From NCBI GenBank assembly GCA_013151865.1, contig JAADHN010000118.1:1-64000 (forward strand): 64,000 nucleotides of DNA, read 5' to 3'. The notes under the pieces were generated by a model that was not told the origin of the DNA, made no database searches, and saw nothing but the letters and a program-made list of their open reading frames with translations. This document shows positions 11,379-63,363 of this stretch, one piece after another (positions within the stretch are counted from its first letter, which is position 1; each line of letters starts with the position of its first letter). Origin of the DNA: Kiritimatiellota bacterium. Its GTDB lineage: Bacteria; Verrucomicrobiota; Lentisphaeria; Oligosphaerales; JAADHN01. The translations under genes were made by a program, and so were the position numbers.

Positions 11379-14300
11379 ACTACGAAATCGGCATCGACAG
11401 CGACTCCTATCCGTTTGCCCGCTTCACGTCCAACGCCGGAACGGACAAGAAAGTCGTGTCCGTGTCCAAAGTTCAGGACATCGATGCCTGGCACCACGTC
11501 GCCTTCGTCTATGACCGAGACGGGGGCCAGATGGTCTTGTACGTCGACGGGATTCGCAAGGACCGCGAGTTCACCGGGTTTGTTCCGGAAATGAGCGACG
11601 GCGACCTGCTTATCGGCTCGGACGGCGCTGCCGGCTTCAGCGGCTACATCGATGAAGTCCGCATTTGGAGCATCGCCCGCACCAGCGCAGAGATCGCGGG
11701 CAGTATGCGAAACGAACTCACCGGCGCGGAAAAAGGACTGGTGAGCTACTTCCGCATGGACGACGCTGAGTGGACCGGTACGCCGAAGTACGGCGCTCAG
11801 GACTTCGTCAATCCCAACGACCTCTCGGCCACCGCTCGGGGCGAAGGTGATTATCAATTCGTCGGAGAAGCCGGCCAAATCCCGGAACTGACCCTGGCGG
11901 ACAACGACAACGATGGCCTGCCGGACTATTGGGAGAACGCCAACGGCCTCTCGGCCAATGATGCCACCGGTGAGAACGGACCCGCCGGCGACCCGGATAA
12001 CGACGGACTCACCAATATCGAGGAGTACAACAACCAAACCAAGCCACAGGAACCCGATACGGACGGGGACGGCATGGCCGACGGTTGGGAGGTCCTCTAC
12101 TCGCTCAACCCGACCACCGACGACGCCAGCCTAGATCCCGATGGGGACGGACTGAGCAACATCGAAGAATACCTCGGGGCCGACAACGTGATGGACTTGC
12201 TCGCTGTCGACTTTACCGCTACGCCGGTCGTCTGGGGCGACGCCACCAACCCGCAAAACCAGGATTCCGACGCGGACGGCCTGCCGGACAAGTGGGAACG
12301 TCGGCACGGACTCGATCCCAACAGCGCCGCCGGCAACGACGGCGCCGCCGGCGACCCGGACGGCGATACCCTCACCAATACAGAGGAACATGATAACCTC
12401 ACCGATCCCAACGACCGCGATACCGACGACGACGGCTTGCCGGACAACTGGGAAGTCCAGTTCGGACTGATGCCCACCGACGCCACCGGGAACGACGGTG
12501 CTGCGGGCGATCCGGATGACGACGGCGCCACCAACCAACAGGAATTCGGGCAAGGGACCGACCCGACGAACCGGGACACCGACGCCGACGACCTGCCGGA
12601 CGGCTGGGAAATCGAAAAGGGTCTGGATCCGGTCAGTGCGGCTACCCCCAACGGGCGCAACGACGATCCCGACAATGACGACCGCACCAACTACGAGGAA
12701 TACCTCAGCAATACCGATCCCCTCGTCGCTGAAGACGACACCGTCGATAGCGATGGCGACGGCCTCACCGACGTTCAAGAGTGGCAGGCGGACATCAGTA
12801 CCGATCCGAACCGGGTCGATACCGACGATGACGGTGTGCCGGACTTCGACGAGGTGCAAGAGGGAACCCGCGGCTATGACAGCCTCTCGAAGGAAGCCAT
12901 CGCCAATTACGTCGACCTCGCCACTTACAACGGTCTCGACTATCGAGGTAATCTGGTCGCACAGCTTGGACCGGACGACTACCTCGAAGTACCTCTCGTG
13001 GACACGGCCGCGCAACGTCTGGCGTTTTCGAGCTGGACCATCGAGGTCCGTTTCCGTGTCCGTGAGCCCGGCGGCGTGGCGCGGAACGGACGCAAGGTGC
13101 TGATCAAACGCGGGTTCAAGGACGACGTGGACGTCAATTACGAACTGGGATTGGACGATCAGTACCGGCCTTATGTCGCCTGGAACAAGGGCGGTGAGCA
13201 GATCGTGAAAGCCTCCAACATTCAGCCGCTCTGGGATGGTTCCACCGAGCGTGAGCGCGAGTGGGTGCATCTGGCAGGTCGTTTCAATGCCGAGGACAAC
13301 ACACTCACCCTTTTCAAAGATGGGGAAGTCATTGCCCGTCGGGATGATGTGTTCGGGTACTGTCCCACGCAAGAGACGGGAAAAACCCCGTTCGTTCGTG
13401 TCGGCGAAGGTTTTGCCGGAGACATCGATGAAGTCCGTATCTGGGGCGTGCCGGACCGCGACCTCGAATACGTCAACCCCGCATCCGGGCAGACCGAATA
13501 CGTCAAGGGCTTTGTGCGAACCTCGCAGGAGATCGCCGCCAATTTCGACCGGTCGGTCACGCCGACCCGGGGGGTCTACGACGGCGGTATTCGGGACCAT
13601 TTTGCCCTCACGGGGCTTCCGACGATGGATTACTTGGCCGACGTCCCCGTGACCGATGCGGCCTGGCATACCGTCTCCGGGACGCTCGGTGTGCGGGTCG
13701 GCAGAGTGTTTTACGAGGATGCCAACGGCAACGACACTTGGGACCCGGGAGAAGACGTCTGGATCGACCGCGCCGCCGATGCAGCCCAGCAGTCGGCCGG
13801 CTTGGTCGGCAACGAAGGCGTGTACGACGACGGTGTGGATACCCAGGTGGCGGCGGGCGCGGACGGTTGGACCGCCGTCGCCGGCACCCAGGGCGTGGCG
13901 GTTACGTTGTATTTCCATGACGACAATGGGAGTCGTGTCTGGGAAACCGGCGAAGACGCATGGATCGACTACCGCAATACCGAGTCCTGGTACAAGGCCG
14001 GCCCCGAACCGTGGGCCGAGGCCATGGGACTGGCCCTCTACCTCAAGTTCGACGACGCGGGCGACACCATCGAGGACTTTGCGTGGCACGCGGACTGGCG
14101 GAACTTCTGGAACCATGCCATTACGCCGCCTGCCGCCGCTACGTTCAAGGTTTACGACGGGAATGCAGCCCCCGAAGATCTGACTGTCGTTATTTACCCG
14201 CAGACCAATCTCCACGAAGTGGCCAAAGATGCCGTCCTCCATGTTCGCATCGATCAGGCGGCCGTGGATCCGGACGACGACGCGTTCGTCTACCGTTACC

Positions 14301-17260
14301 GCTGGCACCAGTGGAACACGGCGGAGAACACGCTGGGGACTGCTGCCGCCGCACTCCGCTTCAGCGACGACAATGGTGACGGGAGTTGGAGCTTCGGCGA
14401 AGATGTCTGGCAGGACAACGACGGCGACGGGACCTATTCCACCGGTGACGACCGGGTGACGGACGGCGGCGATATTCGCGGTTGGGCCACTGAGATCGAC
14501 GCCGGAAAGGCGGGCGTGGCCGGCGACGTCGCCGGGCTCTTTACGAACGGCAACGACGTTTGGCAGGATGATGACGGCGCCGGCGTGTTCAACGCCGCCA
14601 AGGACGTCATGGTTACCGCCATACCGCAGCAGACGGCCAGCGTGTTGGATTTGGACGCGCTTGGCGCGGTCGCCGGCGCGGTGTACGCCGTGTCCGTCTA
14701 CGCCGTTGACGAGTTCGGGGCCGTCGGCGCCCCTGCCACGGACTTCGTGACCACCAACAGCAATACGTCCCCGACCGCGCCGGCTTGGCAGAACTTCCTG
14801 CCCGCAGCCGCGCAGCCGGGGCAGCAGATCTCGGTGGAACTGATGAATGCGGACGCCACCGAAACCGTGGCCTTGTACATCCGCTGGTACCGCAATCTCG
14901 AGTTCATGTACGAGGATGTCTCCGGCGTCGCTCCCGATGTGGCTCCGGGTGATGCGCACACCTTCACGCTCGATGCGGAACTCCTCTACGGCGACGTGTG
15001 GTCCTTCCGGGCTTTTGCCGCCGATGCCAATGGTGGTTTGAGCCGGATGACCGTGGCCGATGAAGTCCGGGTTGTCGGCGGCGCCAGCGTCGCAAATGGT
15101 GCGCCCACTGCGCCGACCGGGGTCGCCATCAGTCCGGCGGAACCGCTCGAGTCGGATATCCTCTCGGTCACCGCGACCGGCTCCGTCGACCCCGAGGGCG
15201 ACGCGTTCGACTACTTCTATGAGTGGTTCCACTACGACGCCGTGGCCGGGGCTTACACCTCGCTCGGCGTTACTGAGCCGAACCTGTCCGAGGCATTCAC
15301 CGCCGCGGGCGACCAGATCCTCTGTCGTGTCTATGCCATGGACATGTACGGTCATGCCAGCGCGGTGGTCTCGAGCAGTGTGGTGACGGTTCAGGCCGAA
15401 GTTACCTCGGGCTTCGACGCCTATGAGGACAACGACACCATGGCCCAGGCCCACCGGATCTTGCCCCATATTGACCCGAACGACGCAGCGGACCCCAACG
15501 AGCAGCAGCACGCCATTCTGCCTACCGGCGACGTGGACTGGTTCTGGTTCCTCGTTCCGGCAGAATCCGGTTCGCAAAAGTCGCATGTGATCTTCGAAAC
15601 GAATAACGGCACGGTCATGTTCGACCGCACGCATACGACGGATATGGACTTCGTCGATACCCAGCTCGAGCTGCACGACGCCGGGGGCTCGAAGATCCTT
15701 GCCGTGGACGATGTCGGCACCCCCGGCACCGAAGGTTCTACCCGGTACGCCCGGTTCGAAATGGATCTCGATCCGGGGATCTATTATGTGAAGGTCCGGG
15801 CCGCCAGCATGTTCGACAGGATCGACGAATACCATGCGCACCTCATCGTGGCGCCTGCCCCGGGTACCGCCGGACCGACCGCACCGACCTCCGTTACGCT
15901 CGGCCCGGAGAACCCCACCACCGCGGACGACCTGGTGTGCGAAGCCGCAGGGGCGACTTCCGCCACCTCGGCCAATGGTCAGGAAGGGATTACCTACCGG
16001 TATGTCTGGTATCGTCAGGGGCCCAACGATGCGGCCCCGGCCGTCGTACCCTTCGGCGCCGGCGATTCCCAGCCGTACGAAGGCACCAACTACGAACTCG
16101 CTCACAGCACGACCTCCCCGGTGGTCGACCGCAAATACACCCGGGCCGGCGAAGTCTGGACCTGCAAGGTCTACGCCCTCGATGCCAATGGCGAGAGCGA
16201 AGGGGTGTTCAGCAATGCCGTCACGATCGGGGAAGCCGCCTGGGCACAGACGATCCGCGTCCTCAAGACCTTCGATGACGGTACTGCCGCCACGGAACAG
16301 GATGTGACCATCGGCTGGCAGTTCGGCGCCACCCATGGCTTCGACCTCAACATCGACGAGGAACTTCCCGACGCCGGCAATCCGGTGCCGCCCCCGGCGC
16401 CGGGCGCCGGAACCAATCCCTGGTCCACCAACCTGCCTGCGGGCCGGTCCTACTCGATCGGAGCAGATCCGGCGCATCCGGCCCTGACACGGGACATTCG
16501 CCCCTACAATGCGCTGACTTCCTGGTTCCTCCGAATCGAACTCGGACAGAACCCGGTCTCAGTCAGAATCCAATGGGACACCCCGGTCCTCCCGGTTGCC
16601 GATACCCCGTTGACGATTGCGGAAGTCGATGAGAACAACGCCTTCGATTTTGTCTACGGTTCCACTGTGGACATGACCGAAAGCACCGAACTCATCATTC
16701 CGGAAGACGTCATTCAGGCCATGGTGGCGGAAGGCCGGAGAAGCAAGCTGTTCCGGATCAGTCTCGGCGGTGGCGATGCCTTCCAGAAGTTGACCCTCGA
16801 TCCGGGGTGGAACTTGGTCAGCTTCGCCATTACACCGGTCAATCCGGACCCGGATGCTGTGTTTACGTTCAACGGCGTCAAAGTGAATTCAGGACCGGTC
16901 TGGATGTATGAAAACGGCGGGTACGTCGCTGCGACGACCATTGTTCCAAAAACCGGGTACTGGGTCTATTGTCCGTTCGACGCGTCCACCTCGGTAACCG
17001 TCTATGGCTTCCAGGCCAGAGGGACCATCCCCGTGGCCCGCGGTTGGAACCTGGTCGGTCCGATCGACAACATGGACAAGCCGTCTCACACTTCCGTACA
17101 AGGCGATGTCTGGTATTGGAAGGACGGAGCGTACCACGCCGCCGCGGCGTACGACCCGAATGCGTTGAAGCAGGAGAACGTGGACGCGGGCCGGGGTCTG
17201 CTGAAGGGATTGGGCTACTGGATCTACGCGACCCGTCGCGCCGACCTTCCCGGGGAATGA
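11180..17260 (+). CDS. Giant LamG / TSP3 surface protein, continuation after frameshift (C-terminal part)
   Basis: This frame continues the preceding protein. The ninth jellyroll is cut in two: its first strand (KLRSVRFGGA) is in the upstream frame and the rest (YLLRVKESARHRLEQFTVELWF) is here, so the nominal TTG start at 11180 is not a real start. In order it holds the rest of that jellyroll, TSP3 strings (about nt 11890-12870), a tenth jellyroll (about 12950-14120), several Ig/cadherin-like beta domains (about 14130-15400), a PPC-like domain (about 15420-15860), another Ig-like domain, and two C-terminal 'GWNLVSF...GYWVY' repeats (about 16800-17260). Between the folds are short W..GED.W.D calcium-type loops. 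No sortase or PEP-CTERM signal is visible. With the upstream part the intact protein would exceed 5,700 residues. A strong hairpin terminator follows the stop. Confidence 0.85.
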   Translation: MGPPQSARPVQTPQRSFRRGPRYLLRVKESARHRLEQFTVELWFRRSTVDKAGVLLSKRTGAADAVNYEIGIDSDSYPFARFTSNAGTDKKVVSVSKVQDIDAWHHVAFVYDRDGGQMVLYVDGIRKDREFTGFVPEMSDGDLLIGSDGAAGFSGYIDEVRIWSIARTSAEIAGSMRNELTGAEKGLVSYFRMDDAEWTGTPKYGAQDFVNPNDLSATARGEGDYQFVGEAGQIPELTLADNDNDGLPDYWENANGLSANDATGENGPAGDPDNDGLTNIEEYNNQTKPQEPDTDGDGMADGWEVLYSLNPTTDDASLDPDGDGLSNIEEYLGADNVMDLLAVDFTATPVVWGDATNPQNQDSDADGLPDKWERRHGLDPNSAAGNDGAAGDPDGDTLTNTEEHDNLTDPNDRDTDDDGLPDNWEVQFGLMPTDATGNDGAAGDPDDDGATNQQEFGQGTDPTNRDTDADDLPDGWEIEKGLDPVSAATPNGRNDDPDNDDRTNYEEYLSNTDPLVAEDDTVDSDGDGLTDVQEWQADISTDPNRVDTDDDGVPDFDEVQEGTRGYDSLSKEAIANYVDLATYNGLDYRGNLVAQLGPDDYLEVPLVDTAAQRLAFSSWTIEVRFRVREPGGVARNGRKVLIKRGFKDDVDVNYELGLDDQYRPYVAWNKGGEQIVKASNIQPLWDGSTEREREWVHLAGRFNAEDNTLTLFKDGEVIARRDDVFGYCPTQETGKTPFVRVGEGFAGDIDEVRIWGVPDRDLEYVNPASGQTEYVKGFVRTSQEIAANFDRSVTPTRGVYDGGIRDHFALTGLPTMDYLADVPVTDAAWHTVSGTLGVRVGRVFYEDANGNDTWDPGEDVWIDRAADAAQQSAGLVGNEGVYDDGVDTQVAAGADGWTAVAGTQGVAVTLYFHDDNGSRVWETGEDAWIDYRNTESWYKAGPEPWAEAMGLALYLKFDDAGDTIEDFAWHADWRNFWNHAITPPAAATFKVYDGNAAPEDLTVVIYPQTNLHEVAKDAVLHVRIDQAAVDPDDDAFVYRYRWHQWNTAENTLGTAAAALRFSDDNGDGSWSFGEDVWQDNDGDGTYSTGDDRVTDGGDIRGWATEIDAGKAGVAGDVAGLFTNGNDVWQDDDGAGVFNAAKDVMVTAIPQQTASVLDLDALGAVAGAVYAVSVYAVDEFGAVGAPATDFVTTNSNTSPTAPAWQNFLPAAAQPGQQISVELMNADATETVALYIRWYRNLEFMYEDVSGVAPDVAPGDAHTFTLDAELLYGDVWSFRAFAADANGGLSRMTVADEVRVVGGASVANGAPTAPTGVAISPAEPLESDILSVTATGSVDPEGDAFDYFYEWFHYDAVAGAYTSLGVTEPNLSEAFTAAGDQILCRVYAMDMYGHASAVVSSSVVTVQAEVTSGFDAYEDNDTMAQAHRILPHIDPNDAADPNEQQHAILPTGDVDWFWFLVPAESGSQKSHVIFETNNGTVMFDRTHTTDMDFVDTQLELHDAGGSKILAVDDVGTPGTEGSTRYARFEMDLDPGIYYVKVRAASMFDRIDEYHAHLIVAPAPGTAGPTAPTSVTLGPENPTTADDLVCEAAGATSATSANGQEGITYRYVWYRQGPNDAAPAVVPFGAGDSQPYEGTNYELAHSTTSPVVDRKYTRAGEVWTCKVYALDANGESEGVFSNAVTIGEAAWAQTIRVLKTFDDGTAATEQDVTIGWQFGATHGFDLNIDEELPDAGNPVPPPAPGAGTNPWSTNLPAGRSYSIGADPAHPALTRDIRPYNALTSWFLRIELGQNPVSVRIQWDTPVLPVADTPLTIAEVDENNAFDFVYGSTVDMTESTELIIPEDVIQAMVAEGRRSKLFRISLGGGDAFQKLTLDPGWNLVSFAITPVNPDPDAVFTFNGVKVNSGPVWMYENGGYVAATTIVPKTGYWVYCPFDASTSVTVYGFQARGTIPVARGWNLVGPIDNMDKPSHTSVQGDVWYWKDGAYHAAAAYDPNALKQENVDAGRGLLKGLGYWIYATRRADLPGE

Positions 17261-51109: not shown

Positions 51110-52131
51110 GATGTCCTCCTTTGCAAGGCCGGGGATTGACAGACTGTCGCGTTCTCCGCCAGAGATGTCGATTGCACGGTTCTTTAGTGACCGACTTGCA
51201 GTAGAGCGGGCCCCTTAGACCCGTGAGGAAGAGCGCCGAGAGTCCGCATACGACAAGGAAGAGTCGATATGACTTCCCGCAATTCGTCGGCAAGTCGTCT
51301 GCGACTGCGGAATCGGATGTCCCCGTGATCCTGCGCTCCCTTTTGCCAACGGGTCACACCTCATCGGGGCCACCCAGCAGGGTCCGTTGGAGGTGTTTAA
51401 TGGCGGGCGCCCCGCGTCGCCTTCGAACGACAGCACGAAACGCGACCCGATGGCGCGGCACGGAGCGTCCGCGCCATCAAAGCACTCGGTTGTTTCTGAG
51501 ACCCCCGCCCGGGCATGCTGCCCGGGGAAAAAACACGCTGGAGCGAAGTCGCAATCCCTTACTCTCCAAACATACGGTAGATGTCATTTGGCGACTTGGC
51601 AAATGCGCAAGAAAACATTAACGAAGCGGTCGCGCCACCAAGAAAGCACCGCGCGGAAGTCCCCCCAATTACGATGACGAGCACCGTCCCGCACAGCGGG
51701 TCTGGGCACGAGCGCGCCGGAGCTGCGGACCCGGTCGGGATCAGGACGTTAAGGAAAGGGCTTTCGTCCCGTTCGAGGAAAGTTTTCCGGCGCGAAAGTG
51801 GCCCCTTCCAATGCCTTTCTCCTTCGCGCTCTTCGGGGCTTCGCGAAAGAATCTGTGCTGGACGGACCGTCTCAGAATAGTCTGGCCAGTTTAACAGAGG
51901 CAGCGAGTTCCCCTGCGCTCCAGATTGTTTCGAGACGACGAATAACCCCAAAATTCGGAGTCGGCTCCCTGGAAATGACGTTGCCGGTGCATCATGGTTC
52001 CACGGTGGGAAAGCACCCCCTGCTCTCTATGGCCGCCAACACGCCACGGCTGCCAATCCAACCAGATGATTCGTCCATCGTTCTTCAGGGCACGACCTTT
52101 GACAGAACGCCTCAAAAGGCGAGGAGACAAC
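51110..52131. other. 1.0-kb divergent intergenic region, no gene seen
   Basis: Between the two-TM gene (minus) and the CBM9-tailed giant (plus). No frame has a ribosome binding site plus a recognisable protein. Two clear hairpins: GGCGCGG/CCGCGCC around 51453-51476, and CCCGGGCA, loop TGC, TGCCCGGG around 51509-51527. On the minus strand the frame ending at 51559 has a hydrophobic stretch (GTVLVIVIGGTSARCFLGG) that could be a decayed signal sequence. Possibly a relic of lost genes. Confidence 0.45.
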
Positions 52132-55100
52132 ATGAAAGCCCGACTGACGGTTGCTCTTGGAATCGCAGGCATGTTCGCCGCACTGAGCGGCCGAACCGCC
52201 CCATTTGCAAAGGACTGGCCCCGGGCATGGACCCCGCTCCTCGAGACCCGCAACAGCGTCGTCCGGCGGATGCCGGGCGGCGCGCTCGAAGTGGACGCCA
52301 CGCCTGGGAAACATGTCTACTACCTGGACGGCGAGGAAATGCGCGATGTGCGGCTGACGGCGCGAATCAAGTTCCTGCGTGCCGACGACAAGTATTCCGG
52401 TTTCTCCGTATATCTGCGCTGGAACGGCCGCGTGTGGGGCGAGCGCGCCGGCTTCTGGGTCTACCTCCGCCCCAAGTTCCGGGGCCTGTACATGCAGAAG
52501 GTCGTGGACGGGAAGCTGGACAAGGAGTTCGGGCGGAGCATAAAGGCCAAGCGCCCCAAGTCCACCCCCCTCAACGAATGGCTGACACTGCGCTACGAGG
52601 CGGTCGGCCGCCGTATCCGAGTCTATCTCAATGATGAACTGCACCTCTCGGTGACCGACGCCGGTCCCTTCCCGATCACCGGCGGACGCGTGGCCTTCGG
52701 CGTCGACGACGCGCACGTGATCGTGGCCGATCTGGAGCAGGAGGACCTGGAGCGATCGGACCGCATCCGGAGGATAACCTACCGCTACATGAACCCGCCG
52801 AACCGCGGCGACAGCGACCGGCGTATTCTCACCGACGGCAAGGTCAACGCACGCGACAAGCAGGCCTTCTGGCGAATGCTGGGCGCCCGTCCCGAGATCG
52901 TGTTCGATCTGGGCGCCGAAACGTTCGTGACCCGCATCATACTCAAGGCCTTCTCTTCGCCGGCGTTGAATATCGCCACGGCCGAAGTGCTGGGTAGCGA
53001 CGACGGAGAGACATGGCGGAGCTTGGCGATGCTCACCAACCGTGATTCGCGCCGGGCCGACGCCGAGCACGAGATCGCCGGCGAAGTCCGGGGAATTGCA
53101 CGGTATGTCAAGCTCATTCTGAACCGGCCGGCGGCCGACCAGGACGTGGAATTGGCGGAGGTCGAGTTCTACGGCCGACCGCCCACCGACAGGGACCGGG
53201 AAGCGGCGTCCGTGAAACCCTACGACACCGGGCCGCCGTTGCCGAGATTTGCGGACTCCGCAGACGGAGACCCGAACTACTTCTTTCTCACCTCCCCCGC
53301 AATGAAAGTTGCAATTCACCGCAAGACAGGCGTGGTTGCCGGGCTCTGGAATCGTGAGCGCAACACCCGCTGCCTCGAACGCCAGCACGATCGCTATCAC
53401 CTGGCAACGCGTGAAGGCGACGTCGATGCGGACGAGTATGGCGACCGCGTGGCCGAGGTGTTGTCCGGCGGCGAGGATGGAATGGTTCATCTTCGTTGTA
53501 CGAACGCGAAGTTGCCTGACATCCGCATCGACAAGCGCTATTCCCTGAGTCCGGACGGGCGCCGGCTGATCAAGCGGGCAGGCTTCGTCAACACGTCACC
53601 CGCCCGAGACCGGTTCCTCACCCACGTTACCGGCGCGATCGCCGCGGAGGACTTCCGCCGCGGGGGCGTTTACATGGGCTGCGACCGGGGACTCGGCGCC
53701 CGCCTCTTCGCCGACGAGGTCACCGTGCCGCGTCAGGTCGGGGCGCTGGGAGCTCGCAATTCGAAGGTCGTGATTCTGCACCGCTATGACCTGGACTGGG
53801 GCGTCGGGCAATTTCGGCACAAGATCAATGACGTGTGGTGCCGGCCCCTGACCGCCAGGTACTACGAGAAAGAGAATCACCCGCCCATTTACCTGCCCAA
53901 CGGATGGGAAATGGGCGTGTGCACCCTGCATCTCCCCCCGAACGAGGAGCAATCGACCGAGATACAGACGGCCCTCTACAACGGGCGCCAGATCGATTTC
54001 TACCGTATGTGGCGGTTTCTCCCGGAAACCAAAGCCGCCTGGGACGCGGTCAAGCGCCCCACATGGCAACGTGATTTGAAGACCTCGGCCAAGATCAGCG
54101 CCCCCCAGTTCAGCGCCGACCAGGCAACCAATATGATGCCCGTCAGGCGCGGACTTCGCATCGCGGCGACCGGCAACCTTTGGTACCTGGCGCACATCCA
54201 CGGCGTGTGGGGCGACTGGTTCAGCGACGGCATGGTCGAGACAGGCGTCGGGGCGCGAATCGACACCGCCTGGCTGAAAGAGTTCATCGCGCGAATGCAC
54301 GCGGCGTCGCCGCGCATGAAAACCGGCGTCTATACATGGGCTTGGGCCGTTCACCCGCGCTCGAACGTCTTCCGCGAGCACCCCGAGTGGTTCATCCAAA
54401 AGGATCGCAATGGACAGGTCTTCAACGCCTACTCGAACATGGTCCTGAACCATTTGCGCCTGATGAGCGTGCCCGGGAGTATGGACGAACTGATCGGAGA
54501 GTTCGGGGAACTGATGCGCAAGTTCCGCGGCGACTTCTTCTATCTCGATGGGGGCGGAGGGGGCGCCAACCTGATCGACTGGGAACACCTGACCATCGAC
54601 TACGATACGCATTGGGAAGAACTGTATCGGCGCATACGGCAGGTCGCCCGGGCCTGCGGCGATGACAAAGGCGTCTGGTTCAATGCCCGAACCGGTCCGT
54701 GCTGGGACGTCGGTTATTACGAGGGCATCGACCGGTCGCTGCATGCCGCCACCTGGCGAGACTCGGCCGACGGTTTGTCCATCGTCAAAATCCGGCAGGT
54801 GTTCGATCCCGATCAAGTCGTTGTTCCCCTGTACTGGCGACCTTCCACGCGACCGTTCTACAGCAATTACTGCATCGGCCTCGGCATCACCCCGGCCTCA
54901 CCGCTCGGAGCCGACGAACTGCTGCGGAAACTCCCGTTCATCGAAGCGGCCTACGAAACGCGGCGCATGAGATGGATCGAGGCCGACCTCGAGCCGGACT
55001 GGCGGGTGAACCCGCGGACGGAAATCGAGGCCTACGCACTGAAGCACGGCCGTGCGGCGGTGATTTCCCTCATCGATCACCGGGAGGGTAACCCCGGCCC

Positions 55101-57183
55101 AGCGGTCATCTCGGCCGACACTCGGAAGCTCGGGCTGGACCCGGCGAAACCGGTCTGCGTGTTCGTTTTCGGAAATCGCGACATTCGCAAGAGTTGGAAA
55201 GCGTTGCCCGAAGGCACTCGGCGAGCGGTGTACCGCCGCACCGGATGGGGGCTGGACACGGTGGCACGGGTCCTGGACGTCCGGGTGATCGAGGCGCCCG
55301 GCCCGCGCATCGAGCTGCGCATTCCCACCCAACCGAACCTGTTGCGCATGGCGGTCCTCAGCACTTCGCCCGCCGCTCTCTTCTCCGTGAATGGGTTGCG
55401 CGTCAACTTCTGGGCGCCTGAGGTGCTGGGCGCTGCCGTGTCCTGCGAGAAGCGTGGCGACGAGCTGCTCCTTCAGGCGCGTGCCCCGAAAGGAGGGGCC
55501 GAGATCGTGGTCTGCGCGCCGCCCGGCAAGCGACTCACCGGCGAGGACGTCCGGCACTTCCATGCGGGTGGCGTATCCATCGCCGTCGTGCCGGTGGCCG
55601 CCGGAAAGTCGACGGTCGCGTTGGCGCTGGAGGATGCCCCGGCGGCAGGGGGGACGCTCCGGGTCACCTGTCCAAAGACGGTGGCCGCCGGAATGGAATT
55701 GCCGGTGACCGTGACCCCGGCGCCCGCGAGCGCGTCCGTCGCCGTCCGCCGCAATGACGCGTTGGTCGCGGTGAAGAACGTGTCTCTGACGAAGGGGACT
55801 TTTGCGCTGTCCGTCCCGGTGCAGGCGCGCAGCGGAACGTGGACCGTGAGCGTAAATGCTGAAATCGGCGGCAAGCTCCGGCACGGCACTGCGGAGTTCG
55901 CAACCACGGGGGCCTTCGAGCCCAAGCTGCCCCCAGTCTATCGGCCCAAGAGATACCCGAAGCCGGTCGTCGCCCGGACCGATGTCATGGCCCGCGGCCT
56001 GCATGTCATCGGGGCCGCCACGAACAGCCACGACGGCTACGACGGCGCGCACGTGCCCCTGGCCGAGCCGCACGGCCTGCGTTTCGGCGGCGCGATGTCC
56101 GCCGCGCCGCGCTCCCGTTACGGGTATGCCTTCGGCGGCCTCGAGTTCGAGAAAGCCCGGGTCCTCACGCTGAAAGTGACGAACACCATCCACAACGCCT
56201 GGACCTTCAACCGCGGGCGAGTCTCGTTCAAGCCCCAGTACACGTCCCTGTTCGCGGGGATGTTCATCGATTACCGCACGGCGAAGGGATACACCCGGCG
56301 CGTCGCTCTGGGCCTGGGTATTCTCAACCCCAAACGCACGTCCCCCCATCCCAAGTGGGGGAAATCGGCAAAACCGGACCGGTTCGTGATGCTCGGGGAC
56401 ATGGTCCACCGCGAGAACGAGAGCACGTTCACCATCGACCTGGCCCGGTGGGCCCCACCCGGATGGACCGGGCGCTGCTGGCTCAGCGCCGGCGTGCACA
56501 GCCTGTACCCGGGGCGCGGCGTCACCGTGGAGATCCTGGACGCTGCGAACTCCGCAAAAGACAAGAAGATCCTCGAAGGCGAGGACCTGGGCGGACTGTA
56601 CAAGCTCAAGACCTACCGGATTGCCCGGACCGCAACAGCGCCCCGCATCGACGGCAAACTGGACGATCCGGCCTGGAAGAACGCCGAACCCGCAACGGGT
56701 TTCTACGTGTTCGGACGAACATCCGTCGCCGAACAGAAGACCGCGGCCTGGATTACGTACGACGATACCAACCTCTACATCGCCTTCGACTGCCCGGAAA
56801 CCGCACGACCTCTCAACGTTTCGTCTGAAAAGCTTTGGGGGCGTGACGCCGTCGATGTGGCGCTCAACCCTTGCGGCGACCGCAAGACATTCCTGCAAAT
56901 CATTGTGGACGCAAACGGCGAGTTCGACCAATTCAGCCACAGCCCCGACGGCAAGAAGTTCAAGTGGGACGGCGTCCGTGTCGCCGCGGGCAGGCGACAA
57001 GGCGGATGGACGGTGGAGATTGCAGTCCCGCTGAAGTCCATGGACTTGAAGCCTGTCAAAGGCTTCAAGTGGTCCGGCAACTTCGTGCGTTACCGTGCCG
57101 GCGATCCCATGAGTACATGGTCGTTCATGCCGGGCCCGGCCATCAACGATCCCGAACGCATGGCAGTGTTCGTCCTGGACTGA
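52132..57183 (+). CDS. Large secreted glycosidase-like protein with F5/8C and CBM9-like domains
   Basis: 1683 residues; the ATG at 52132 follows GAGGAGA and gives a signal peptide (MKARLTVALGIAGMFAALSG). A concanavalin-like / DUF1080-like beta domain (about residues 25-205) is followed by an F5/8 type C domain (about 215-355), a beta-supersandwich with a long TIM-barrel-like region (about 370-980), further beta domains, and a C-terminal CBM9-like module (about 1490-1683: APRIDGKLDDPAW, AWITYDDTNLYIAFDC). In the barrel, FFYLDGGGGG (Asp about 806) looks like a nucleophile strand of clan-D type glycosidases, and YYEGIDRS may hold the acid/base. The exact GH family was not recognised. CBM9 modules bind sugar ends. 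It is followed by a hairpin terminator. Confidence 0.75.
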   Translation: MKARLTVALGIAGMFAALSGRTAPFAKDWPRAWTPLLETRNSVVRRMPGGALEVDATPGKHVYYLDGEEMRDVRLTARIKFLRADDKYSGFSVYLRWNGRVWGERAGFWVYLRPKFRGLYMQKVVDGKLDKEFGRSIKAKRPKSTPLNEWLTLRYEAVGRRIRVYLNDELHLSVTDAGPFPITGGRVAFGVDDAHVIVADLEQEDLERSDRIRRITYRYMNPPNRGDSDRRILTDGKVNARDKQAFWRMLGARPEIVFDLGAETFVTRIILKAFSSPALNIATAEVLGSDDGETWRSLAMLTNRDSRRADAEHEIAGEVRGIARYVKLILNRPAADQDVELAEVEFYGRPPTDRDREAASVKPYDTGPPLPRFADSADGDPNYFFLTSPAMKVAIHRKTGVVAGLWNRERNTRCLERQHDRYHLATREGDVDADEYGDRVAEVLSGGEDGMVHLRCTNAKLPDIRIDKRYSLSPDGRRLIKRAGFVNTSPARDRFLTHVTGAIAAEDFRRGGVYMGCDRGLGARLFADEVTVPRQVGALGARNSKVVILHRYDLDWGVGQFRHKINDVWCRPLTARYYEKENHPPIYLPNGWEMGVCTLHLPPNEEQSTEIQTALYNGRQIDFYRMWRFLPETKAAWDAVKRPTWQRDLKTSAKISAPQFSADQATNMMPVRRGLRIAATGNLWYLAHIHGVWGDWFSDGMVETGVGARIDTAWLKEFIARMHAASPRMKTGVYTWAWAVHPRSNVFREHPEWFIQKDRNGQVFNAYSNMVLNHLRLMSVPGSMDELIGEFGELMRKFRGDFFYLDGGGGGANLIDWEHLTIDYDTHWEELYRRIRQVARACGDDKGVWFNARTGPCWDVGYYEGIDRSLHAATWRDSADGLSIVKIRQVFDPDQVVVPLYWRPSTRPFYSNYCIGLGITPASPLGADELLRKLPFIEAAYETRRMRWIEADLEPDWRVNPRTEIEAYALKHGRAAVISLIDHREGNPGPAVISADTRKLGLDPAKPVCVFVFGNRDIRKSWKALPEGTRRAVYRRTGWGLDTVARVLDVRVIEAPGPRIELRIPTQPNLLRMAVLSTSPAALFSVNGLRVNFWAPEVLGAAVSCEKRGDELLLQARAPKGGAEIVVCAPPGKRLTGEDVRHFHAGGVSIAVVPVAAGKSTVALALEDAPAAGGTLRVTCPKTVAAGMELPVTVTPAPASASVAVRRNDALVAVKNVSLTKGTFALSVPVQARSGTWTVSVNAEIGGKLRHGTAEFATTGAFEPKLPPVYRPKRYPKPVVARTDVMARGLHVIGAATNSHDGYDGAHVPLAEPHGLRFGGAMSAAPRSRYGYAFGGLEFEKARVLTLKVTNTIHNAWTFNRGRVSFKPQYTSLFAGMFIDYRTAKGYTRRVALGLGILNPKRTSPHPKWGKSAKPDRFVMLGDMVHRENESTFTIDLARWAPPGWTGRCWLSAGVHSLYPGRGVTVEILDAANSAKDKKILEGEDLGGLYKLKTYRIARTATAPRIDGKLDDPAWKNAEPATGFYVFGRTSVAEQKTAAWITYDDTNLYIAFDCPETARPLNVSSEKLWGRDAVDVALNPCGDRKTFLQIIVDANGEFDQFSHSPDGKKFKWDGVRVAAGRRQGGWTVEIAVPLKSMDLKPVKGFKWSGNFVRYRAGDPMSTWSFMPGPAINDPERMAVFVLD

Positions 57184-57226: not shown

Positions 57227-57508
57227 TGGTAAGCGTCGCATCTGCCCCATCTTTTCCGTGGATGGCTCTGTCCACCTGAAACACTGCGTGCAACGCTGCG
57301 GGCGGGGCGTATCGGCTCCGAACAGCCTTCGTCGATGCCTTCGACCGTCGGATCGGACACGAGTATTCTGCCCGCAGTGAAGAGCAATCCACAACCCGCG
57401 TGGGCGGGAATCGAACTCGTACAAGACCGATGCAGCAACTTGCGCCGCCTGCTGCCGTACTTCGCCGAGCCCCTTGCTCTTCGTTCAAGAAAAGGGAACC
57501 CATGCCTG

Positions 57509-60500
57509 ATGAGAATTCGATTCGGGACTGGTTTGGTGACCGTCATGTGCTTCATCTGTTCAAGCGGGAGCAGGTTGTGCGCCGCCGAGGGTCGGGGTCG
57601 GGCCGTCCGGCTGGGCGCTGCCATTGCGCGGATTTCCCGGAAATCCGTCGGGCTCTGCGGCTTGGTCTATGCGGACACCGAGGCCGCCGGGATTGCCGCG
57701 GGGCTCGCAGGGGGCAATCGGTTGTTCGTTCACGTGCTTGTGGCGGACTCGGCACTCCGCGATAAAGCCCGCCGGCAACTGACGGCTCGGGGGCTCGCCA
57801 AGCGTACATCGGTGGCCGTGATCGAGGCGGACTCCGCCTTCCCCTACGCGGACAACCTCCTGAATCTCCTGGTCGTCGGCGGCGGCACAGGCGGGCCGGC
57901 GCTTCCGCCCCTGTCGGAATGTCGGCGTGTATTGGCGCCCGGGGGCACGCTCTGCACCCGTCCGAGGGCCGGGGCCCGGACCGACGTGGAGGCACGGTTG
58001 CGACAAGCCGGATTCGTGAATGTCACCGTGCAGAATGAAGACGGCGAGATCCTGGTGTTCGCACGCTCTCCCGTGCCCGACGGCATGGACGATTGGCCTC
58101 AGTTCATGCACGGTGCGGACAACAACGCCGTGTCGCAAGACCGGTTTGTGGGGCCGCCGAATTCACTCCGATGGACCGTCGGGCCGCGCTGGTCCCGGGA
58201 CCACGACGTAACCCCCTCGATTTTCGGGCTCGTATCGACGCAGGGCCGCATCTTCTATATCGAGGACGGTGGACCGACCTGCGTCATCGACCCGCGATTG
58301 CCTGAGAAGTGGTCCCTGGTGGCACGCGACGCTTTCAACGGAACGCTCCTATGGAAGCGGTCCGTCAAAGATTGGTATTCGAGTCGCCAGATCTGGGGGC
58401 ACATCCCGGCCTCAGCCGAACGGCGCATGGTCGCAACCGCGGAACGCGTGCTCGTCACCCCCGGGCTCCAGGCCCCGGTCATCGCCTTGAATGCCGCAGA
58501 CGGACGGATGCTGCACGAGTACAAGGGGACCGAACGAACCAGTGAAATCGTCCTGGACGGAGATACCCTGCTCCTGGTAATCCGTCGCACGGACCCGCTC
58601 GAAGGAAAGACCGCCTCCCGCAATCGACGGCGTTTTCGCCCCGGATTCCGGGGGTTGCCCGACGGCGGCGAGGCCCTCATGGCCGTGCGCTTGGAGGACG
58701 GTGCGATCCTTTGGCGAAAGGAGCGCCATTGCCGCCCCCTCACGCTTGCGGTGCAAGCGGGGCGAGTGTTCTTCGGAGAAGGCGAGAACACGGTGTGCGT
58801 GGATCGCGTTTCCGGTAGAGAGTTGTGGTGCAGCCCCGGGCGGGCCGACACGGTCGTTGTTCGCGACGGCGTGGTCCTGGTCGGTGCGCGCATCGGTCAG
58901 TCACGGAGGACGGAGTTGCGTGCCTTGTCCGCCAGGGACGGCCGCCGCCTCTGGTCAAGACAGGGCAACTACCTGCCCACTTTCATGTTCTTCCAAGTGC
59001 CGGTGGACGTCTTCGTGGCCTCCGGACTGGTGTGGGGTTTGGCACAGGATCTCGAGTGGAACAAATCTCCGGGCAGCGGGATACTGCCGGGACTGGACCT
59101 GTGGACAGGTGAAGAAAAGGCGCGGCGCGACATGACCGGGGCTTTTACGGCCGGACATCACGTGCGCTGCTACAAGAGCAAAGCGACCGACCGCTATCTT
59201 CTTTTCAATAAGCGCGGGATCGAGTTTGTCGAAACCCGTAGCGGCCGGGGGGCGATCCAAGTGCGTTGGGTGCGTGGGGCGTGCCGCTACGGTATCATGC
59301 CCGCCAACGGTCTCATCTATGCCCCGCCGCAGGCCTGTTTTTGCTATCCGGAGACAAAACCGGTCGGGTTCAACGCCGTGGCGGCGAGACGCCTGCCGGA
59401 GTCCGGCACACAGGAAGGGGCCGCGTCTCGTCTCGAACCCGGGCCTGCCCGGGAGCGAAGCATCGAGCCGTCCCCCGCATCGCCCGAGGACTGGCCCACC
59501 TACCGGCACGATCCGCGCCGCACCGGGACCTGTCCCACCGACGTTCCGGCAAAACCGGTGATGTTGTGGAGTGCGGACCTCGGCGAACGCATCACACCCC
59601 CCATTGCCGTGAACGGTCGCGTTTTCGTGGCTGGGAAAGACACTTGTACGCTGAACGCGTTGGATGCCGTCGACGGCCGACGCTTGTGGAAGTTCGTGGC
59701 CGGCGGCGTGATCGATTCCGCCCCGACCGTGGTTAAAGGACGGGTGCTCTTCGGGGCGTCCGACGGCGCGGTGTACTGCCTGGACGCCGCCGACGGAACG
59801 CCCGTGTGGACGTTTCGCGCTGCGCCGACCCGGCGGTTGGTCGCGGAGGAAGGCCGGCTCGCATCCGCTTGGCCCGTGCACGGGAGCGTCCTGGTCTTCC
59901 GGGACGTGGTTTACACTGCCGCCGGGAGGTCGTCGGTCATGGACGGCGGCATCGACGTCTACGGCCTGAACCCCCTGACCGGGAGTGTGGTGCATCACAC
60001 CCGGCTCAGCGGCCCGGGCGAAACCGCCATCCACAGAGCCGGAGCAAAGATCGATCACGTCCGCCGACCCGGCGCGCTGTCCGATCTCCTGCTCACCGAC
60101 GGGCGGTACATCTACATGCGCCACGTAAAACTCGACCCGGAACTGCCGGAGAAAACGCCGGTCCGCGCCATGACGTGGGGCGCCAAGGGCCCCCGACACT
60201 TCTTGGCCACGAGCGGGTTCCTGGACGATACGCTGTTCAACCGGTCGGTCTGGCAATACGGCGCGTATGTGCACCGGAGTCAAATGCTCACATTCGACGA
60301 CCGTGCCGTATACGGCCTCCGCGTCTACTCCGGCATTTCCTGGAACGCTCCCATCTGGAACGTCGGGGACGGATACCTGCTGTTTTGCCGTCCCTATCGG
60401 CCGCCGGCCAAGAAACGGAAAGCGCCGGCCGGGCAGGAACGCTTGCTTTTCAGGGTGCCGTACGGGAACTGGGCATGGTGGAAGCGGGTACACGTGCTGG

Positions 60501-60787
60501 TCCGCGCCATGGTCACGGCGGGTGTGCGCCCAAAAAACAGTCGCGTCTTCATTGCCGGTGCACCGGAGCAGATTCGCAGGGAAGACCCGCTTGCGGCGTT
60601 CGAAGGGCGGACAGGTGGGCGTCTGCTGACATTCGCGGCGGGCGACGGAACTCTTCTCGGCCGAATCAAGCTGCCCGGTCCGCCGGTTTTCGACGGCATG
60701 ATCGCGGCCCGCGGTCGCCTCTATCTCTCGCTCCGGAACGGTCGGTTGGTTTGTCTCGGACGACCGAAGCAGCGCCAGCCTGAATAA
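57509..60787 (+). CDS. Secreted PQQ-type beta-propeller protein with degenerate methyltransferase-like head
   Basis: 1092 residues starting at the ATG at 57509; an ATG at 57502 is out of frame. Signal peptide MRIRFGTGLVTVMCFICSSG, cut near LCA. A Rossmann-like head (about residues 25-190) resembles class I methyltransferases: PYADNLLNLLVVGGG and CRRVLAPGGTLC match the post-IV strands, but the glycine-rich AdoMet motif (normally GCGDG) is VYADTEAAG. Two PQQ-type propellers follow (about 190-610 and 640-1090) with the repeated form DAVDGRRLWKF / DAADGTPVWTF and the entry strand DWPTYRHDPRRTGT. Such proteins are common in Planctomycetota-like genomes, and their role is unknown. The last two codons and the stop lie inside a repeat also found at 63.1 kb. 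Confidence 0.8.
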   Translation: MRIRFGTGLVTVMCFICSSGSRLCAAEGRGRAVRLGAAIARISRKSVGLCGLVYADTEAAGIAAGLAGGNRLFVHVLVADSALRDKARRQLTARGLAKRTSVAVIEADSAFPYADNLLNLLVVGGGTGGPALPPLSECRRVLAPGGTLCTRPRAGARTDVEARLRQAGFVNVTVQNEDGEILVFARSPVPDGMDDWPQFMHGADNNAVSQDRFVGPPNSLRWTVGPRWSRDHDVTPSIFGLVSTQGRIFYIEDGGPTCVIDPRLPEKWSLVARDAFNGTLLWKRSVKDWYSSRQIWGHIPASAERRMVATAERVLVTPGLQAPVIALNAADGRMLHEYKGTERTSEIVLDGDTLLLVIRRTDPLEGKTASRNRRRFRPGFRGLPDGGEALMAVRLEDGAILWRKERHCRPLTLAVQAGRVFFGEGENTVCVDRVSGRELWCSPGRADTVVVRDGVVLVGARIGQSRRTELRALSARDGRRLWSRQGNYLPTFMFFQVPVDVFVASGLVWGLAQDLEWNKSPGSGILPGLDLWTGEEKARRDMTGAFTAGHHVRCYKSKATDRYLLFNKRGIEFVETRSGRGAIQVRWVRGACRYGIMPANGLIYAPPQACFCYPETKPVGFNAVAARRLPESGTQEGAASRLEPGPARERSIEPSPASPEDWPTYRHDPRRTGTCPTDVPAKPVMLWSADLGERITPPIAVNGRVFVAGKDTCTLNALDAVDGRRLWKFVAGGVIDSAPTVVKGRVLFGASDGAVYCLDAADGTPVWTFRAAPTRRLVAEEGRLASAWPVHGSVLVFRDVVYTAAGRSSVMDGGIDVYGLNPLTGSVVHHTRLSGPGETAIHRAGAKIDHVRRPGALSDLLLTDGRYIYMRHVKLDPELPEKTPVRAMTWGAKGPRHFLATSGFLDDTLFNRSVWQYGAYVHRSQMLTFDDRAVYGLRVYSGISWNAPIWNVGDGYLLFCRPYRPPAKKRKAPAGQERLLFRVPYGNWAWWKRVHVLVRAMVTAGVRPKNSRVFIAGAPEQIRREDPLAAFEGRTGGRLLTFAAGDGTLLGRIKLPGPPVFDGMIAARGRLYLSLRNGRLVCLGRPKQRQPE

Positions 60788-60950
60788 TGCACGAACCGCC
60801 TGCTGCGATGGGGCATCTCGCGTGCTCGCGGAACATCGCTGTCGTCCAACGAGCGAGGCGACGTTTCAATGCAGCGTCGTTTCGGCGCAATTACCTGAAT
60901 CCGTATAAGCTGCGTACTCTTGCGGCGACGTTCGTGAATCCATCGAGGAA
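60779..60950 (+). repeat. Diverged ~170-bp repeat, left copy
   Basis: It starts with CCTGAATAATGCA (60779-60791), identical to the reverse complement of 63123-63135. Similarity continues for about 170 bases (shared blocks CTGCTGCGATG, GCATCTCGC, GTTTCAA, TATAAGCTGCG). Read as protein, both copies give an MHEP.AAM.HLA...LNPYKLR pattern, so it may derive from a former coding end. It overlaps the stop of the propeller gene. Confidence 0.7.
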
Positions 60951-60972
60951 GTCGGACCGCGGCGGCCTCAGC

Positions 60973-62478
60973 TCAATTCAGCGGCAGGACCCAAATGTTG
61001 CGGTATCTGACTCGATTGTGATGGTCTTGAAGCAGGATCGGACCCGGTTCGGAAGACTCCCTGCTCATCCCGCCGCCGGTCGGGTGGGGAATGGGTTGTT
61101 TCTCGTGGATCACGACGCCGTTGTGCCGGGCCGTGACCCACGCGTCCGCCGTTTTCTTGCCGTCCGGCCCGAAACGCGGGGCATGAAACTCGATGTCGTA
61201 CGTCTGCCACTGCAACGGCGGAGCACACATGTTGACCCGCGGACGCGCCACTTTGTAGATGCCGCCGCACTCGTTGTCGAGCCCTTTGAGACCGTAACTG
61301 TCCAACACTTGGATTTCATACCGCGCTTGGAGGTACACGCCGCTGTTGCCCCGAGCCTGTCCCCGGGCCTCCGGCAAGAAGGGCGTCCGGAATTCGAGGT
61401 GAAGGCGGAAGTCGCTGAATTTCTTCTTGGTGATCAGCGACCCCGTCCCGGGCACGATTTCCACTGCCCCGTCGCCGAGTAGCTTCCAGCGGGGGCCCGG
61501 TGGTGACTCTTCTCGGCCGACCAGCTTCCAAGCGACGGTATCGGGGGCGGATTCCGGCGGAAACGGGGTCGCCAGGAGCTGGTTCGGCGGGACCCCCTTT
61601 TTGCGAAACGGACCGGCAGCCTGCCAGCAAAGCACGACGCCGTTAACGCGCGCGCCCAACACGGAGAGTTCGGTCCCGTCCGCGGCTTTGGCGGCGTGGC
61701 GCACGACCAAACCGGAAACGGGTTTGCCGTCTTCGCCCGTTACACGCAGCCAGCCGGCCCAGTCGCCGCCTCCCTGACTCACCTTCATCAGCACTTCGTT
61801 CCAGCCGCGTTTGAGCCTCACCTGCACGCGATCCTGGCCGGGAGTCAATGGACGAAACACGTTGGCCTTGTGTACTTCTGCGCCGTTGAGCCATACTTTC
61901 ATGCCGTCGTCGGAACCAAGTTCGAAGCGCACGGTACGAGCGCTGTCGCTGCGAATGGCATTCCGGAGGTAGCCCACGCAGTTTCGGGAATGTCCCAGTG
62001 CCTTATTCAGGTCCGCAACACCGTAGGCCTTGCCCGGCTGCTCCCACTGGTCGAGGTTCGTGCCGTCCAGCAGGACCAGTGCACCGGCCGGGGGTCGAGC
62101 CCCGAGCGTGGGGGACAATTTCTCCACATGTCGCAGCTCGAACGTCCCGCCGTCGCTCCCCGGCAACGTACCCCTAAAAACGCCGTCGCCGATCTGGGTC
62201 GCGGGGCCGAAACGCAGGACATCCTTTTCTGTCGTGCCCTCGAGAACGACTTTCGGTTCGAGGCCCCGGTACAGGGCGTCGAGGAGATTGGCCCGGTACC
62301 GACCTTTGCCGAGAGCGATGACCTGTGCCGCCAACGGCTTTTCCACAACGCCGGCCCGCAAGCTCCCCTCCCAATCGCCCATGAACGGGTCGGGAGGCGG
62401 GGCCGCCCCGACAAGCAGGACACCCCACAAGACCAGTCCTCCAAAAACGAAATGTGCGCGCAGTTTCGAGGTGTTCAT
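60973..62478 (-). CDS. Secreted DUF1080 (3-keto-disaccharide hydrolase-like) protein with inserted beta-sandwich
   Basis: 501 residues; the ATG at 62478 has a GGAGGAAG site. Signal peptide MNTSKLRAHFVFGGLVLWGV. N-terminal beta domain (DPFMGDWEGSLRAG), then the DUF1080 start LLDGTNLDQWE. The rest of DUF1080 comes only after about 170 residues (WKLLGDGAVEIVPGTGSL, NSGVYLQARYEIQVLDSYG, NRVRYRNIWVLPLN). Between them sits a beta-sandwich with SDDGMKVWLNG and KVSQGGGDW, the same domain as in the HEAT/isomerase/DUF1080 fusion at 31.9-35.9 kb. DUF1080 members hydrolyse 3-keto glycosides. The gene is bracketed by two inverted repeats. Confidence 0.8.
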   Translation of the reverse strand: MNTSKLRAHFVFGGLVLWGVLLVGAAPPPDPFMGDWEGSLRAGVVEKPLAAQVIALGKGRYRANLLDALYRGLEPKVVLEGTTEKDVLRFGPATQIGDGVFRGTLPGSDGGTFELRHVEKLSPTLGARPPAGALVLLDGTNLDQWEQPGKAYGVADLNKALGHSRNCVGYLRNAIRSDSARTVRFELGSDDGMKVWLNGAEVHKANVFRPLTPGQDRVQVRLKRGWNEVLMKVSQGGGDWAGWLRVTGEDGKPVSGLVVRHAAKAADGTELSVLGARVNGVVLCWQAAGPFRKKGVPPNQLLATPFPPESAPDTVAWKLVGREESPPGPRWKLLGDGAVEIVPGTGSLITKKKFSDFRLHLEFRTPFLPEARGQARGNSGVYLQARYEIQVLDSYGLKGLDNECGGIYKVARPRVNMCAPPLQWQTYDIEFHAPRFGPDGKKTADAWVTARHNGVVIHEKQPIPHPTGGGMSRESSEPGPILLQDHHNRVRYRNIWVLPLN

Positions 62479-62649
62479 CGGCGTTCTTCCTCCTGATACC
62501 GGGTTGTCTGTGAGAAAGTTGGCGACATATGGACGATGGCCAACACGACCGCAGTCAAAAGTACCGCATATTTGGGTAACCGTGTTGGGAATGAAGGCAT
62601 GTTTTCCCGCATGGGTGAGCGGCCGGCAGTTCCATGCGGGACGCTAGGG

Positions 62650-62757
62650 CGATTCGCCTTTCATGGAGGGATCGATCACGTCGTGGCCGATAGCCGTCTT
62701 CCAGTCGCCGCCGAGTGAGCGGCGAGAAAAGCGAACACGATGGCCAGCAGTCGCATC
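62650..62757 (-). pseudogene. Relic of a secreted-protein gene start (signal peptide only)
   Basis: From the tandem ATGATG near 62757 the minus strand encodes MMRLLAIVFAFLAAHSAATG, a good signal peptide, but stops after about 27 residues. A neighbouring frame continues with GGDWKTAIGHDVIDPSMKG, resembling the mature start of VCBS/FG-GAP-type secreted proteins of these bacteria. This reads as a frameshifted 5' remnant. Short and uncertain. Confidence 0.3.
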
Positions 62758-62967
62758 ATTCAATGGAACCCCCGCCTTCGACCCGATAAAGGCGGTTTCC
62801 ACAGGGGGAACGCAATCTGCGTGCGGGCCTCGCCTTTGGGTACGTGCAACATATCGTGGATTTCGAGGATTGCCCCGGGAATCTGGGGTTGCGACCCAGG
62901 GCGCAGGCGGGTAATGTACCGCCCGCATCCCAATCCCATCCCATGATCGGCGCCGTCTGGTCTGATT

Positions 62968-63135
62968 GATTCTCGAACTTCGTCCCGAGACGGCGCAGCT
63001 TATATGGGTTCAAGCCATTGCGTCGAACGCCGGACGAGGCCCTGTTGAAACACCGCCTCGGTCGGTGAGCGACGGTAATGTCCTGAAAGCCTGCGAGATG
63101 CGTCATCGCAGCAGATGGCTCATGCATTATTCAGG
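62968..63135 (-). repeat. Diverged ~170-bp repeat, right copy (inverted)
   Basis: Reverse-complement copy of the repeat at 60779. Its outer end TGCATTATTCAGG (63123-63135) mirrors the left copy's outer end exactly. The two copies face each other around the DUF1080 gene. No target-site duplication is seen at the outer ends (GCCAG on the left, TTGGG on the right). Confidence 0.7.
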
Positions 63136-63363
63136 TTGGGCTACCGTGAAATTCGGACCGTCGCCCTTTCAAGTGCCGAGCGGCTCAAAGCTGTTTGGTC
63201 GATTCCGCGGAGGTTGAGTCTCGGCCCGCGCCGCGGATCGTTTCGGATCGAACCATATCTCCGCCGGAGCATTCGCTCGGCAAGTCCGGCTCGGCACATG
63301 GGGCGATACGAGAGAACTGCCTGTTACGACCCCGTCGCCACCGAGGAAAGGCACCCCACCGGC

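Follow-up and report, generated by a model that had tools for sequence, protein, structure and literature searches.

Near the end of the 64,000-nucleotide stretch of DNA analysed here (the window), from a Kiritimatiellota bacterium, two diverged repeats in inverted orientation enclose a DUF1080 gene, and the outermost bases of the two repeats are identical. Such an arrangement may be read as an old mobile cassette or as a small dispersed element present twice, and the original prediction offered both readings. Our results indicate that no single cassette ends in these repeats: each is a decayed copy of a hairpin MITE 175 bases long and was inserted independently of the other. Very probably, they are non-autonomous MITEs of the IS1380 type that inserted separately and were mobilised in trans. 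The assignment as an IS1380-type MITE is well supported, and elements of this kind are ordinary; the novelty lies in describing, for these bacteria, a family of high-copy IS1380-type MITEs that is unusually constant in length and has unequal conserved ends. A tempting mobile-gene-cassette reading is thereby removed, and annotators can now mask a defined repeat family.

The repeat pair and its family

The 13-mer CCTGAATAATGCA occupies positions 60779-60791 (+) and 63123-63135 (-), precisely where identical outer ends had been predicted, and the distance from outer end to outer end is 2,357 bp, in agreement with the predicted span of 2.36 kb holding a DUF1080 gene (Table 1). Aligned inward, the left and right repeats share 73% identity across approximately 175 bases, so that the inward similarity of about 170 bases noticed at the outset is not due to chance. 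A gene relic had also been proposed within the interval, a claim that found no backing: among the ORFs tested in 62,500-62,960 there was no Pfam match at E<0.1. The ORF crossing the right copy likewise has no Pfam domain. What the first reading overlooked is that each repeat is a complete transposon with inverted ends of its own.

Table 1. Coordinates of the two MITE copies, their parts and the neighbouring genes in the window
Feature	Position	Strand	Remarks
Left MITE copy, IS1380-type	60779..60947	+	169 bp (consensus 175 bp); old; 74% identity to family consensus
Right MITE copy	62961..63135	-	175 bp; inverted relative to left copy; 90% identity to family consensus
CCAG, decayed YTAR target left of left copy	60775..60778		probably CTAG at first
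CTGG, inner flank of right copy	62957..62960		degenerate YTAR target duplication; matches 63136-63139 at 3 of 4 bases
TTGG, outer flank of right copy	63136..63139		from sequence
Outer terminal inverted repeat of left copy	60779..60794	+	includes TAA of propeller gene (60785-60787)
Outer terminal inverted repeat of right copy	63120..63135	-	from sequence
PF06439 (DUF1080, 3-keto-disaccharide hydrolase) gene between the copies	60973..62478	-	Pfam; bystander, not cargo
PQQ/BamB-type beta-propeller gene	57335..60787	+	3' end reaches 9 bases into left copy

Two further features of the window were recorded. A second PF06439-type region lies near the pair, in a 1,729-aa ORF (51994-57183) that combines a weak 3-keto-disaccharide hydrolase match with F5/8 type C and CBM9 domains. 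At 54-17260 (+), two overlapping giant ORFs of 3,774 and 2,026 aa are rich in Laminin_G_3 domains and TSP3 repeats; in the first, a subtilase domain and its fervidolysin-like prodomain are also present.

Searching the genome (6.2 Mb, 176 contigs) returned 14 exact occurrences of CCTGAATAATGCA and 43 with no more than one mismatch, while the reversed-pattern control returned 0. A DNA comparison with the right copy gave at least 41 matches (40 of 154 candidates were scored), and a 31-base right-end pattern with up to three mismatches was located at a minimum of 54 places, again with 0 for the reversed-pattern control; this figure is a lower bound, the left copy of the window being too diverged to fall among the 54. 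Extraction and alignment of 48 copies gave a length of exactly 175 bp for most and of 174-176 bp for nearly all. All but one of the 48 are intergenic, with divergent (14), tandem (23) and convergent (8) neighbours, and thus occur in every gene orientation, as judged by a simple codon-usage gene caller whose calls are uncertain near locus edges. The original prediction had itself held that a common intergenic repeat, present singly at many loci, would speak against a cassette, and the search for the 13-mer and the repeat unit found exactly such a repeat; its second reading, that of a small dispersed element lying here in two copies, is upheld. The family has the features by which MITEs are recognized: it is short (under about 600 bp) and gene-free, possesses terminal inverted repeats and a target-site duplication, and is dispersed in many copies.

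The terminal inverted repeats of the consensus begin the element with CCTGAATAATKCATGA and finish it with TCATGAATTAATCAGG, the full MITE end being CTCTCGCGACGAAGTTCATGAATTAATCAGG. The 175-bp consensus folds end to end, with its ends paired, into one long imperfect hairpin (-69.8 kcal/mol, z = -6.0), and consensus-like copies from the related genome G053 and from the G016 group also fold over their full length (z = -5.9 and -10.9, respectively). Directly outside the ends stand YTAR tetramers, which have been eroded in this genome. A transition-tolerant form of the motif (Y[TC][AG]R) is present at 33/48 left and 26/48 right ends, compared with 0-3 when the position is displaced by 5-20 bases. 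Paired flanking tetramers yield 98 matches versus 79.7 upon shuffling (P=0.0015), the flanks of most copies being too eroded for exact duplications. Related genomes preserve the pattern more fully: identical 4-bp flanks, nearly all of them YTAR, were found at 27 of 38 copies, where 10.1 are expected and 0 of 5000 shuffles reached 27, and YTAR was found at 37/38 and 34/38 ends. The 4-bp YTAR flanks are a target-site duplication.

Ends shared with IS1380 insertion sequences

A search for PF13701 in 198 genomes of the class located full-length insertion sequences with MITE-type ends. Three of them encode proteins that score above the NCBIfam threshold of 180 bits and are named IS1380 family transposase there: one of 1,613 bp with flanks CTAA/CTAA (L136, 329 bits), one from the same order of 1,705 bp with flanks CTAA/CTAG (L137, 350 bits) and one of 1,584 bp with flanks TTAA/TTAG (L133, 396 bits). 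Shorter or damaged insertion sequences at two additional loci (L141 and L151) bear MITE-type ends as well. Altogether, the MITE end motif was detected at 11 of 29 PF13701 loci, versus 0.84 in dinucleotide shuffles. Because full-length IS1380 elements thus present the same ends and the same YTAR flanks, the MITE is best read as IS1380-type.

The resemblance has well-defined limits. Full-length members of the IS1380 family (PF13701 / NF033539) from the same order and class share the inverted ends CCTGAATAATTCATRAA and the 4-bp YTAR flanking duplication with the MITE, but they are approximately 1.6 kb in length and encode a transposase, whereas the MITE spans 175 bp and encodes none. The ends match over only about 16-20 bp, beyond which a further 10-15 bases conserved in the MITE have no counterpart, and the hairpin interior of the MITE was not seen in the IS1380 ends inspected. 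Neither this genome nor the closest MITE-rich genomes yielded an intact IS1380 transposase; the single PF13701 match in this genome is weak (23 bits) and lies below the cut-off. The lack of an autonomous partner fits the decayed state of the copies and is consistent with its loss; active MITEs usually share a genome with their partner transposase, whereas a fossil need not. In G058, a member of the same class, only a broken IS1380-type transposase gene was found (contig C237, loci L097/L123), at a locus without matching ends; this gene might be a relic of the MITE's partner. Another DDE transposase, from the MITE-rich genome G016 (L112), is also without matching ends.

Akin to other bacterial MITEs, such as the TA-flanked MITEs and the TIMEs of Pseudomonas, the element is short and gene-free, has inverted ends and a target duplication, and reaches a high copy number at mostly intergenic sites; it differs from them in its IS1380-type ends and YTAR target. 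The literature titles and abstracts that we searched contain no description of a high-copy MITE derived from IS1380. REP/REPIN elements, which are associated with RAYT transposases, are similarly palindromic, intergenic and dispersed, but members of the present family end in true inverted repeats spaced 175 bp apart and are flanked by a 4-bp target duplication; REP elements are not known to produce such a duplication.

Rival accounts of the pair

Identical outer ends in inverted orientation invite the view that the two elements once moved jointly with the 3-keto-disaccharide hydrolase gene, in the manner of TIME-COMP, the MITE-flanked composite transposons documented to transpose in Pseudomonas (PMC4133298). 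Given such composites elsewhere the idea is reasonable, yet here it is not supported, and we consider it highly improbable. The outer four-base flanks, CCAG (60775-60778) and TTGG (63136-63139), agree at one position in four, whereas the right copy's own flanks agree at three. The absence of a target duplication in the original prediction therefore holds for the 2.36-kb unit as a whole, but not for the individual copy. Furthermore, the copies are only 73% alike and have diverged unequally from the consensus (90% versus 74%), and the interior (60960-62955) occurs once in this genome. It is on these mismatched flanks, this unequal divergence and this single-copy interior that the proposed old mobile cassette founders. 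Proximity of the copies is no argument for it, since 54-185 copies in 6.2 Mb would by chance produce 1-12 pairs within 2.2 kb, and other close pairs do exist among the matches listed (40875/41251 on contig C77 and 20534/20803 on C116).

Even as independent insertions or occurrences, such hairpins could be structures maintained by the host, as bidirectional terminators or small RNAs, and no transposon remnants at all. A full-length hairpin of strong folding energy, a left copy located between convergent genes and the dispensability of a reading frame would all suit such a role, which the transposon ends and exact 4-bp duplications nevertheless render scarcely credible. RNAalifold found essentially no structure common to the 48 copies; across them, the pairs of the consensus hairpin comprise 416 broken cells versus 25 that are doubly changed and still paired, and pairing is barely higher than in shuffles (86.1% versus 85.5%). 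A single pair, columns 56/139, shows GC/AU alternation, in a subfamily-like manner. Convergent neighbours accompany only 8 of 48 copies, and no Rfam family scored above its gathering threshold. If the copies are transposons, then the identity of their transposase may still be questioned, for YTAR targets are used by further IS groups too, and the IS1380 partner is missing from this genome; another YTAR-using family (for example of the IS5 or IS701 type) might mobilise the MITE, its likeness to IS1380 being convergence. We regard this as very improbable. The MITE end motif flanks IS1380 transposases at many loci, while a partner search with PF13701 and PF01609 in six MITE-bearing genomes, in which the loci were checked for ends, revealed no PF01609 locus with an inward end pair around a transposase.

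Gene ends, history and relatives

On the IS1380-type reading, the history of the two copies would be as follows. An IS1380-family transposase supplied in trans would have recognized the CCTGAATAATKCATGA / TCATGAATTAATCAGG termini and moved the element into YTAR sites, with duplication of the four bases, until this genome held many tens of copies. The partner transposase was then presumably lost, the copies decaying ever since. The two copies in the window would represent separate insertions that came to lie 2.2 kb apart, and in opposite orientation, by chance, with the left one landing on the propeller gene's stop codon or next to it, as may be expected because YTAR contains TAA or TAG.

The propeller gene does end at a TAA inside the left copy, which confirms the original remark that this copy supplies its stop. 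The frame reads CGC CAG CCT GAA TAA, and CCAG stands where YTAR would be expected. Within the window, YTAR occurs 0.41 times per kb in coding sequence versus 2.52 per kb outside it or at stops, and each of the three frames meets a stop in the MITE ends. The borrowed stop can be understood from these two properties, namely that YTAR includes a stop (TAA or TAG) and that the MITE ends close every frame. The simplest reading of the sequence is that an original in-frame TAG became CAG, whereupon the ORF would have run three codons on to the stop in the element's end, which took over. At another locus (L037) a similar arrangement is seen, the flank being CCAG and the stop lying at offset 8, and predicted genes likewise terminate within other MITE copies. 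In a GC-rich genome, YTAR targeting thus puts MITEs at gene ends, where they provide replacement stop codons.

Elements with the same ends are present in three genomes of the same order (G016, G002 and G012) and two of the same class (G053 and G058), as well as in MAGs labelled Hydrogenedentota and Lentisphaeria; the nearest relatives compared belong to other families of the order. The strict right end was found in 4 of 388 genomes spread over the phylum. This patchy distribution, together with the many copies where the element is present, fits a mobile element. The plasmids, phages and viral contigs searched gave no MITE match. About 577 MITE end matches in one relative, G058, illustrate that elements with IS1380-type ends can attain very high copy numbers as MITEs. 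Across genera, the ends are nearly identical and the interiors weakly alike, with a length of 173-177 bp in all but three of 38 copies. It is conceivable, if rather unlikely, that a long-lived IS1380-dependent MITE lineage has been passed between distant bacteria, keeping its unequal 30-bp ends, its length of 174-176 bp and its full-length hairpin while the interior was replaced; size and hairpin shape would then themselves be required for movement.

Several minor observations derive from these relatives. Apparent end pairs of 1.5 kb and 0.6 kb on G058 contigs C176 and C179 proved to be two adjacent MITEs each. On G058 contig C357, a second hairpin element of about 170 bp (L107:457-626) has the ends CCTGGATTATTCATAAA/TTTATGAATAATCCAGG and the flanks TTAG/TTGG, and is probably another IS1380-type MITE subfamily. 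One MITE on G058 contig C458 (L087) is interrupted, somewhere in the 260 bases that precede the right end, by a shorter TA-bounded insert starting with TACTGCAAGCAGTA; similar sequences, ACTGCAAGCAGT, flank MITEs in G053, and together they likely constitute a second small repeat family.
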